Notes under the pieces: model-generated
Told to the model about the DNA's origin: nothing
Seen by the model: the letters and a program-made list of their open reading frames with translations, nothing else
Databases searched by the model: none
Assembly: GCA_009782615.1 (NCBI GenBank)
Contig: WRIS01000001.1
Coordinates: 1 to 64,000, forward strand
Direction: 5' to 3'
Origin: Eggerthellaceae bacterium
GTDB lineage: Bacteria > Actinomycetota > Coriobacteriia > Coriobacteriales > Eggerthellaceae
DNA: 64,000 nucleotides
Translations under genes and position numbers: made by a program
Shown here: positions 1-57,168 of the stretch, piece after piece
Numbering within the stretch: the stretch's first letter is position 1
How the letters are laid out: every line of letters starts with the position of its first letter

Positions 1-18
1 ATCAAGGACTAGGTTGCT

Positions 19-124
19 TCGTCATTCGCTGCGCTCATTCCTCGCAATGACGAGGGGTTTTAGGTTGTTGTCGGGATTGCCGCTCCGTTGCGCTTTAGGA
101 TTGCGGGTCAAGCCCGCAATGACG
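19..124. repeat. Palindromic intergenic repeat element
   Basis: Two palindromes are seen. Positions 19-26 (TCGTCATT) pair with 46-53 (AATGACGA). Positions 99-124 form a hairpin around GCGGGTCAAGCCCGC. The 26-bp unit at 99-124 is the exact reverse complement of 34419-34444, so this is a dispersed repeat. A diverged copy lies inside the RNase R gene at 56147-56172. It is followed by a terminator; no ORF is supported here. Confidence 0.8.
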
Positions 125-34418: not shown

Positions 34419-34444
34419 CGTCATTGCGGGCTTGACCCGCAATC
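34419..34444. repeat. Dispersed 26-bp palindromic repeat
   Basis: This is the exact reverse complement of 99-124. ATTGCGGG and CCCGCAAT flank a short loop. A three-mismatch copy lies inside rnr at 56147-56172. The rest of the interval 34277-34489 shows no ORF. Confidence 0.88.
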
Positions 34445-55067: not shown

Positions 55068-55107
55068 TTAAGGTTACGCTGATTTATACTGACCTGTGAG
55101 TTTCGCT

Positions 55108-57168
55108 ATGTCCGCACGCGCAAAAACAAGACGCAATCCACAGAGTAATCCCCGTGGCATTTTGAAAATCATGTCAGGGGGATTCGGCTTTGTGCAAACT
55201 GCCGAAGGGGAATTTTTCGTTCCTGCATCCAAGATAAAAGGAGCCTTTGACGGCGACATTGTTGAAGTGGCTCTTGTTTCAGTCAACCGAGCACACCATC
55301 AACCCACCAAACCTCATGCGAACACGGGTGAAAAACCTGTTGCGCGGGTTATCCGCGTTATTCAACACGCCCACGATACGCTCATCGGGCGCTATGAGAT
55401 TGCAGAGCCTTTTGGCGTGGTGATTCCCCTTGATAAGCGCATAAGCTATGACATCTTCACGATGCGTGCTGAAAATCCTCAGGTGCAGGAGGGCGATATC
55501 GTGCGCGTTCGTATTACGGAATATCCCAGTTCTCGTACGGCAGCGCTAGGAGTGATTGAGGAAGTTGTCGGGCACGGGGAAGAAGAAACGCTTGGGGTCG
55601 AGATGATTATCGCCCGCCATAAGCTAGCGACGCAGTTTTCCCCTGCTGCGCTTGAGCAGGCGCGCGAGAGCACCCTTGATACGAAACAAGCCTTGGAGAT
55701 GGGCTATCAAGATCTTCGGGAAAGAGTGGTTTTCACCATCGACCCTGTTGATGCACAGGATTTTGATGATGCCCTTTCGCTTGAAGAAGAAGAGGGCTGT
55801 TTGCGCTTGGGCGTTCATATTGCGGACGTGTCGTATTATGTGGGATGGAATTCTGCTATCGACCTTGACGCGCAGGCGCGCGCAACGAGCGTTTATCTGG
55901 TTGACCGCGTGTTGCCGATGCTGCCCGAAGCTTTGTCAGCAGATATCTGTTCGCTCAAGCCGTGTGAAGAGCGCCTGAGCATGACGGTTGATATGTATCT
56001 TGACAAGGAATTTCGCGTGGTACGCTATGAGGTATATCCTGCCGTTATCAAATCATCGGCGCGCTTCACCTATGAAGAGGTTCAAGAGACCCTTGAGAAG
56101 GCGAACGCAAACCCTTCCGACCCTTCGTCATTGCAAACCGCGCATTCGTCATTGCGGACTCGACCTGCAATCTTAAACAACAATGCGAACCTTGCAAAGA
56201 ACGCAGATGACTTCCGCGAACACTTCGCGGGGCTCGACAAAATCGCATGTGCGCTACAGCAACAGAGAAAACTTGCAGGTGGCATCGACTTTGTCTCAAG
56301 TGAAGCAAAGGTGGTACTCGACGATGCAGGCAAGCCCCTTGAAATCGTTTTACGCCGCAAAACGGCTGCGACGTGCCTTGTCGAAGAAGCGATGATTCTG
56401 GCAAACACCACCGTGGCGAAGCACTTGCTTAATCACGGCTTCCCTGGACTTTTCCGCGTGCATGAAAAACCTTCTGAGGACAGCCTTTCCGAACTCGTCT
56501 TAATACTGCGGGAATTCGATTACCTCAACGACATTGATGCGGCTGATTTTGTTGCTGGAAACCCTTTTCGCATACAAGAGGTGCTTGCGCGCTGCAAGGG
56601 CAAGCCTGAAGAAGAACTCATATCTTCGCTTGTCCTGCGAGCTATGAAACGCGCCGTCTATCATGAGCAATGTTTACAGCATTATGCTTTGGCTTTAGGG
56701 GAGTATTGTCATTTCACGAGTCCCATTAGGCGATACCCCGACCTGGTGATTCATCGGATGCTCAAAGCCCAGCTGTTGGGGCGCGGCGAAAGCTATCAGC
56801 ATGAAGCCGATTCGCTTGTCAGGCTGGCAGAAAAATCATCCGAAGCGGAACGGATTGCTGAAGCGGCGGCGCGCGAATCGCAAGAACTCAAAATCGTTGA
56901 ATATATGCAAGATGATGTGGGCTGTGTTTTTGGTGCTGTCATATCGGGAGTGACTGCCTACGGGTTTTTTGTGCGCCTTGCCAACACGGCTGAAGGTTTG
57001 GTGGCAGCGAAAAACTTGGGCGAGGAATATTTCGTCTATGACGCGAAGCGGCATACCCTTGTCGGAGAAGAAAGTGGGCGGCGTTTTCGGCTGGGGCAAA
57101 AGGTCAAGGTTATTTTAGAGGCTGCTGATACCAGGGCGGGGCATCTCGATTTCGCCTTAAGCGACTAG
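55108..57168 (+). CDS. rnr: Ribonuclease R carrying an in-frame repeat insert
   Basis: A 686-residue 3'-5' exoribonuclease. Domain order is cold-shock-like domains (from GILKIMSGGFGFVQTAEGEFFVP), the RNB catalytic domain with DPVDAQDFDDALSLEE metal ligands, and a C-terminal S1 domain (GCVFGAVISGVTAYGFFVRL). Within the RNB domain, after FTYEEVQETLEKA, lies a Ser/Asn/Ala/Leu-rich insertion. Part of it (56147-56172) is a diverged copy of the palindromic repeat seen at 99-124 and 34419-34444. RNase R also degrades tmRNA-tagged messages. ATG 55108 is chosen; GTG 55096 is possible. Confidence 0.93.
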   Translation: MSARAKTRRNPQSNPRGILKIMSGGFGFVQTAEGEFFVPASKIKGAFDGDIVEVALVSVNRAHHQPTKPHANTGEKPVARVIRVIQHAHDTLIGRYEIAEPFGVVIPLDKRISYDIFTMRAENPQVQEGDIVRVRITEYPSSRTAALGVIEEVVGHGEEETLGVEMIIARHKLATQFSPAALEQARESTLDTKQALEMGYQDLRERVVFTIDPVDAQDFDDALSLEEEEGCLRLGVHIADVSYYVGWNSAIDLDAQARATSVYLVDRVLPMLPEALSADICSLKPCEERLSMTVDMYLDKEFRVVRYEVYPAVIKSSARFTYEEVQETLEKANANPSDPSSLQTAHSSLRTRPAILNNNANLAKNADDFREHFAGLDKIACALQQQRKLAGGIDFVSSEAKVVLDDAGKPLEIVLRRKTAATCLVEEAMILANTTVAKHLLNHGFPGLFRVHEKPSEDSLSELVLILREFDYLNDIDAADFVAGNPFRIQEVLARCKGKPEEELISSLVLRAMKRAVYHEQCLQHYALALGEYCHFTSPIRRYPDLVIHRMLKAQLLGRGESYQHEADSLVRLAEKSSEAERIAEAAARESQELKIVEYMQDDVGCVFGAVISGVTAYGFFVRLANTAEGLVAAKNLGEEYFVYDAKRHTLVGEESGRRFRLGQKVKVILEAADTRAGHLDFALSD
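56121..56172 (+). repeat. Palindromic repeat copy inside rnr
   Basis: CGTCATTGC starts twice here (56125 and 56147). The second unit (56147-56172) matches the 26-bp repeat at 34419-34444 with three changes. Its length keeps the reading frame open. Confidence 0.8.

Follow-up and report, generated by a model that had tools for sequence, protein, structure and literature searches.

The rnr gene in the window analysed here, a stretch of 64,000 nucleotides from an Eggerthellaceae bacterium, very probably carries a lineage-restricted REP palindrome that was copied in frame into a disordered loop of RNase R, is translated with it, and is tolerated rather than selected. This reading rests on the number of genomic copies set against an empty control, the intact frame and RNB core, and the low-confidence loop within an otherwise confident structural model. 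It also draws on the REP-free rnr of a congener, the spacing of coding repeat heads in multiples of three, and a loop variant that opens the reading frame. Further support comes from the weakened hairpin in rnr, set against the pairing that the copies conserve overall, and from a different palindrome in the same RNase R loop of two other genomes (G058 and G022).

Two exact copies of the 26-mer repeat lie between genes on opposite strands, at 99-124 (- strand) and at 34419-34444 (+ strand), the latter 40 nt past the 3´ terminus of the gene for RNase P RNA (34822-34485, - strand). A third, with three mismatches, occupies 56147-56172 (+ strand) in the RNB-domain part of rnr, whose frame is intact. 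The initial annotation had already given these three positions, two as intergenic and one as lying inside rnr. The copy at 99-124 falls in a contig-end stretch common to contig C15; contigs C1 and C15 (L189 1-123) appear to share their first ~123 bases, REP included, which points to an assembly overlap in a repeat, and one genomic copy may have been counted twice through it. A related, longer CGTC-headed hairpin (GTCATTGCGAGGAATGAGCGCAGCGAATGACGAAG) at 16-52 (- strand) represents a second repeat type of this genome; the type (GTCATTGCGAGGA...GACGAAGCAACCTAGTCGTTGAT) recurs at many intergenic loci, often beside the 26-mer. The genome (G000; 1.67 Mb in 15 contigs, 93% complete) contains 49 copies of the 26-mer at three mismatches or fewer, far above chance (24 and 25 on the two strands; reversed control, 0). 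Forty-one copies are intergenic, two are at gene edges and six are within genes, according to gene calls from a simple home-made codon model in which starts may be misplaced. The intergenic settings comprise 27 unidirectional, 10 convergent and 2 divergent gene pairs. One copy (L192 3125-3150) sits at a stop codon and touches the 3´ end of the gene for an LRR/LPXTG-anchored protein. Many frames of 100-225 aa that cross intergenic copies were rejected as spurious; they run opposite to genuine genes, among them moaA, ispE and tig.

The 26-mer reads CGTC-ATTGCGGG-CTTGA-CCCGCAAT-C. It comprises an unpaired CGTC tag, retained in almost every one of the 49 copies, exactly or with one base changed, an 8-bp stem (ATTGCGGG/CCCGCAAT) and a 5-nt loop (CTTGA, CTCGA or CCTGA). 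A tail is kept across the copies, as CTT (38/49) or CCT. Across 38 distinct variants, 96% of stem cells are paired and five of the eight pairs have changed on both sides, so that the palindrome is what is kept; none of 500 shuffles matched this level of compensatory change. The CGTC-tagged REPs (Di Nocera, De Gregorio and Rocco 2013, PMC3733652) carry an unpaired CGTC (or TGTC/CCTC) end tag, an 8-9 bp stem starting A,T and a 4-5 nt loop, include some intragenic copies and have no dedicated transposase. By its tag, 8-bp stem and 5-nt loop, the element is a CGTC-tagged REP, and the nearest family is CGTC-2 (8-bp/5-nt). The stem opening with A-T pairs, the short unpaired tail, the preference for unidirectional or convergent gene pairs, the few intragenic copies and the lack of a dedicated transposase are further likenesses. 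Three features differ. The host belongs to the Coriobacteriia (Actinomycetota), whereas the published families come from five phyla that do not include Actinomycetota (PMC3733652). The tail is CTT or CCT instead of CCA, which most, not all, of the published tails fit (PMC3733652). Finally, head-to-head dimers predominate in the published families, as a tendency and not a definition (PMC3733652), whereas close pairs are tandem in G000 and tandem (7), tail-to-tail (6) and never head-to-head in its congener G001. The six tail-to-tail pairs of G001 (L194, L197, L198, L200, L203 and L204), an arrangement rare among CGTC REPs according to the literature, are 43-47 bp apart.

The distribution of the REP is patchy. 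In its own family, it occurs in 2 of 61 genomes, namely G000 and G001 (59 copies, 55 intergenic), and no copies were found in the third congener and the 58 other genomes. Outside it, a different family of the order has identical copies in large numbers, reaching 88 in a single genome, and another family of the class has a few. The units would spread through a trans-acting process and settle mostly between genes, and those inside genes would survive only where the frame is kept and the loop tolerates added residues. As short palindromes scattered over the genome and reliant on trans-acting enzymes, they resemble the RAYT-mobilised REPs and REPINs of the GTAG type, from which they differ by the CGTC tag and by the lack of a RAYT gene flanked by REP. 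A RAYT/Y1 transposase was rejected as the mover: no Y1 transposase was found in G000, none of those in the other REP-bearing genomes is flanked by REP, and their frequency shows no excess (4/9 REP-bearing genomes compared with 85/151 in the order), the association having been checked for Y1 transposases only.

The rnr gene (55096-57168, + strand, stop codon included) encodes an RNase R of 690 aa, starting at GTG 55096 or ATG 55108, with OB, CSD, RNB and S1 domains. The RNB-core residues are invariant in an alignment of 51 sequences. A hypervariable stretch of the RNB domain, a loop of about residues 338-369 (56107-56202, + strand), is flanked by the predicted helices 326-337 and 370-393. Its pLDDT is 50-67 against a mean of 91 in an AlphaFold2 model built from this alignment, and the insert is predicted to occupy a flexible loop at the protein surface. 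Solved RNase R structures show a gap opposite residues 333-368 (378 to 387 in the best match), and the same loop ranges from 4 to 104 residues across Eggerthellaceae. The description of an insertion where relatives have a short loop holds for many relatives but not for the two congeners, whose loops of 46 and 32 aa, both REP-free, compare with 36 aa in G000. Since the congener loops are also long, the REP makes up roughly half the G000 loop, and it may have replaced other loop filler rather than created the insertion. The loop sequence of G000 is missing from every relative examined in the Eggerthellaceae alignment, as the initial annotation had anticipated for the insert. The rnr of G001 lacks the REP despite the 59 copies in that genome, so the insertion looks lineage-specific. 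The rnr loops of REP-rich distant relatives (family f6) likewise contain no REP.

Two REP units are recognisable in the rnr loop. The full unit (56145-56174, + strand), with a TT leader and a CTT tail, has the 26-mer core at 56147-56172, stem arms at 56151-56158 and 56164-56171, and the loop CTCGA at 56159-56163. Upstream lies a decayed unit (56124-56144, + strand) that keeps the head TTCGTCATTGC and is otherwise degenerate; its CGTCATTGC head, at 56126, precedes the full unit by 21 bp. The core lies within residues 351-359 (SLRTRPAI with flanks), and the decayed head and the full unit together encode SSLQTAHSSLRTRPAIL, ~17 residues. A chance likeness between a Ser/Leu-rich coding stretch and the REP is scarcely credible. 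The agreement covers no more than 23 of 26 positions, and chance occurrences of the 10-bp head by itself are found at other places in the window, but a match of this stringency is expected 2e-6 times per window and 5e-5 times per genome, and 100 dinucleotide shuffles of the window gave none. The likeness also extends into the family-typical TT leader and CTT tail, and a second head stands 21 bp upstream. The shuffles and the genome counts rule out a chance match.

The codons of the segment (CCT TCG TCA TTG CAA ACC GCG CAT TCG TCA TTG CGG ACT CGA CCT GCA ATC TTA) are free of stops because this copy has the CTCGA loop, a variant common among the genomic copies; the commoner CTTGA would place TGA in this frame. 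Tandem heads are 22 bp apart at four intergenic loci and 21 bp apart in rnr. All head spacings within genes are multiples of 3 (21, 18, 69, 57, 51 and 18), compared with 6 of 21 in intergenic DNA (Fisher p=0.003), a test on six pairs that are not independent, five of them coming from one paralogous protein family. Coding palindromes are removable or skippable in other systems, and rnr might be decaying, or the segment might be removed or bypassed before or during translation. This is very improbable given a 690-aa frame that is intact with all domains and invariant residues and a segment without stops.

In the rnr copy, the hairpin folds less stably (-6.6 against -12.0 kcal/mol) and has lost its innermost pair. 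The palindrome statistic on the insert is not significant because the unit has decayed. One rival reading is a regulatory role, in which an RNA hairpin in the coding region would tune the decay of rnr mRNA, perhaps via RNase R itself, an enzyme that degrades structured RNA. Compensatory changes do conserve the REP type across its copies, and unidirectional or convergent genes flank most copies, as expected of transcribed elements. The rnr copy, however, is short of nearly half its folding energy along with the innermost pair, and G001 has an rnr without the REP, which leaves this role distinctly improbable. Selection on the protein, through an effect of the insert on the RNA or ribosome binding of RNase R, is also unlikely. 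The loop has been lengthened repeatedly in Eggerthellaceae and nucleic-acid enzymes are among the reported sites of coding REPs elsewhere (PMC3733652), but neither its sequence nor its length is conserved, even among congeners, and the segment is predicted to be disordered. We favour an in-frame insertion that is tolerated and not selected: a copy of a CGTC-tagged REP, probably as a pair of head and full unit, would have entered the surface loop of the RNB domain in the lineage of this species. It would be translated as the ~17 residues of the disordered loop given above, with the hairpin decaying afterwards under presumed neutrality.

The other five of the six in-gene copies in G000 are also in frame, in a family of secreted ChW-repeat proteins, and they answer the question raised by the initial annotation of further copies in genes. 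The REP site is an acidic linker behind the signal peptide. Two of these genes are full-length and encode a transglutaminase-like or a YkuD domain; contig ends truncate two more (L186:4352-6415 and L186:6510-8636, - strand; L187:4634-5092, + strand; L188:3-476, - strand). They read the REP antisense as IADQVRND, whereas rnr reads it in the sense direction; both strands and different frames are thus used. The linker contains many xRNDE units that resemble REP heads and appears to be built from antisense REP units. The only coding case in a conserved enzyme of G000 is rnr.

The proposed resemblance to the protein-coding palindromic elements of Rickettsia proved closer than an analogy. The RPE-4 and RPE-6 elements of R. 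conorii have been equated with CGTC families (PMC3733652); the G000 REP therefore belongs to a class that includes them, and the comparison is typological. RPE-4, -6 and -7 have in common an ATGAC motif (PMC3767692), the complement of GTCAT in the G000 REP. The rnr copy shares two features with such elements: a dispersed repeat stands in frame in a conserved gene, the gene is intact, and the Eggerthellaceae alignment shows the insert to be absent from the orthologues of related species. Rickettsia elements likewise lie in frame in housekeeping enzymes, and a single site may hold different elements in different species (PMC3767692), which compares with the RNase R loop. They differ in that their inserts in genes are longer (84-192 bp among the examples compared) and occupy many genes per genome (PMC3767692), whereas the coding REPs of G000 are confined to one enzyme gene and one secreted family, and common descent of the insertions is not implied.

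The rnr loops of G058 and G022, which belong to two other genera, carry a dispersed palindrome unrelated to the REP. In this second element, two blocks, GCTCA(G/A)ACAGTCCT and GCGGAACT, are conserved, and the inner hairpin and the outer stem of ~20 bp vary; its short forms are CTCAGACAGTCCT...GCGGAACT and GCTCARACAGTCCT ... GNGGAACT. The first motif of its core is present in 12 and 15 copies in G058 and G022, respectively (control, 0), and the paired motif has matches in 61 of the 121 genomes of the family (control, 0). The element matches no Rfam family, and a literature search on the REP sequence or on palindromic elements of Eggerthella(ceae) returned nothing relevant. G014, a congener of G058, has a short rnr loop without the element, so the insertions in G058 and G022 are probably independent. 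In G022, FolC and rnr each contain the element twice in frame and RsmA contains it once, and a further in-frame copy apparently lies close to an ABC ATPase N-terminus; the sense copies use a single phase and encode similar peptides (HTPCSDSPRFAAELRAEHA in FolC). RsmA and FolC show gaps at the element sites when aligned to solved structures. In G058, the element is in rnr and apparently also in a HypF fragment and a TsaD-family/GNAT fusion. The loci of these two genomes are L150, L147, L235, L244, L234, L245, L247 and L254. A methyltransferase in the same set appears to contain the element in frame as well. Open reading frames over the element in G052 and G006 (L256, L257, L259, L261 and L262) were set aside, being GC-rich antisense frames that match nothing in Pfam. 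The rnr loop of G052 (L120) holds a further near-perfect long palindrome that lacks the second-element core, with a stem score of 23 against a shuffle maximum of 13.

A broader reading can be offered tentatively, as one that could well be true without yet being the probable one. At least two unrelated families of protein-coding palindromes, the CGTC REP and the CTCAGACAGTCCT...GCGGAACT element, may repeatedly enter the same permissive enzyme loops in Eggerthellaceae, in RNase R independently in three genera, by mobilisation that does not depend on RAYT. The CGTC REP in rnr is a known kind of element; the second element and the recurrent use of one RNase R loop are more novel, and these palindromes in one loop, together with the second element in several conserved enzymes, are the more interesting outcome. 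Accounts of protein-coding palindromes usually tie them to a small set of genomes, mostly proteobacterial, that includes Rickettsia and Wolbachia. The occurrence of the REP type and an unrelated second palindrome in frame in Actinomycetota, inside conserved enzymes, argues against an intracellular lifestyle as the cause. The RNase R loops of the family, from 4 to 104 residues and with or without palindromes, form a natural series for testing how inserts enter and are tolerated. If two element families do use the same loops, Eggerthellaceae would provide a clear case of protein-coding palindromic inserts in free-living Actinomycetota.
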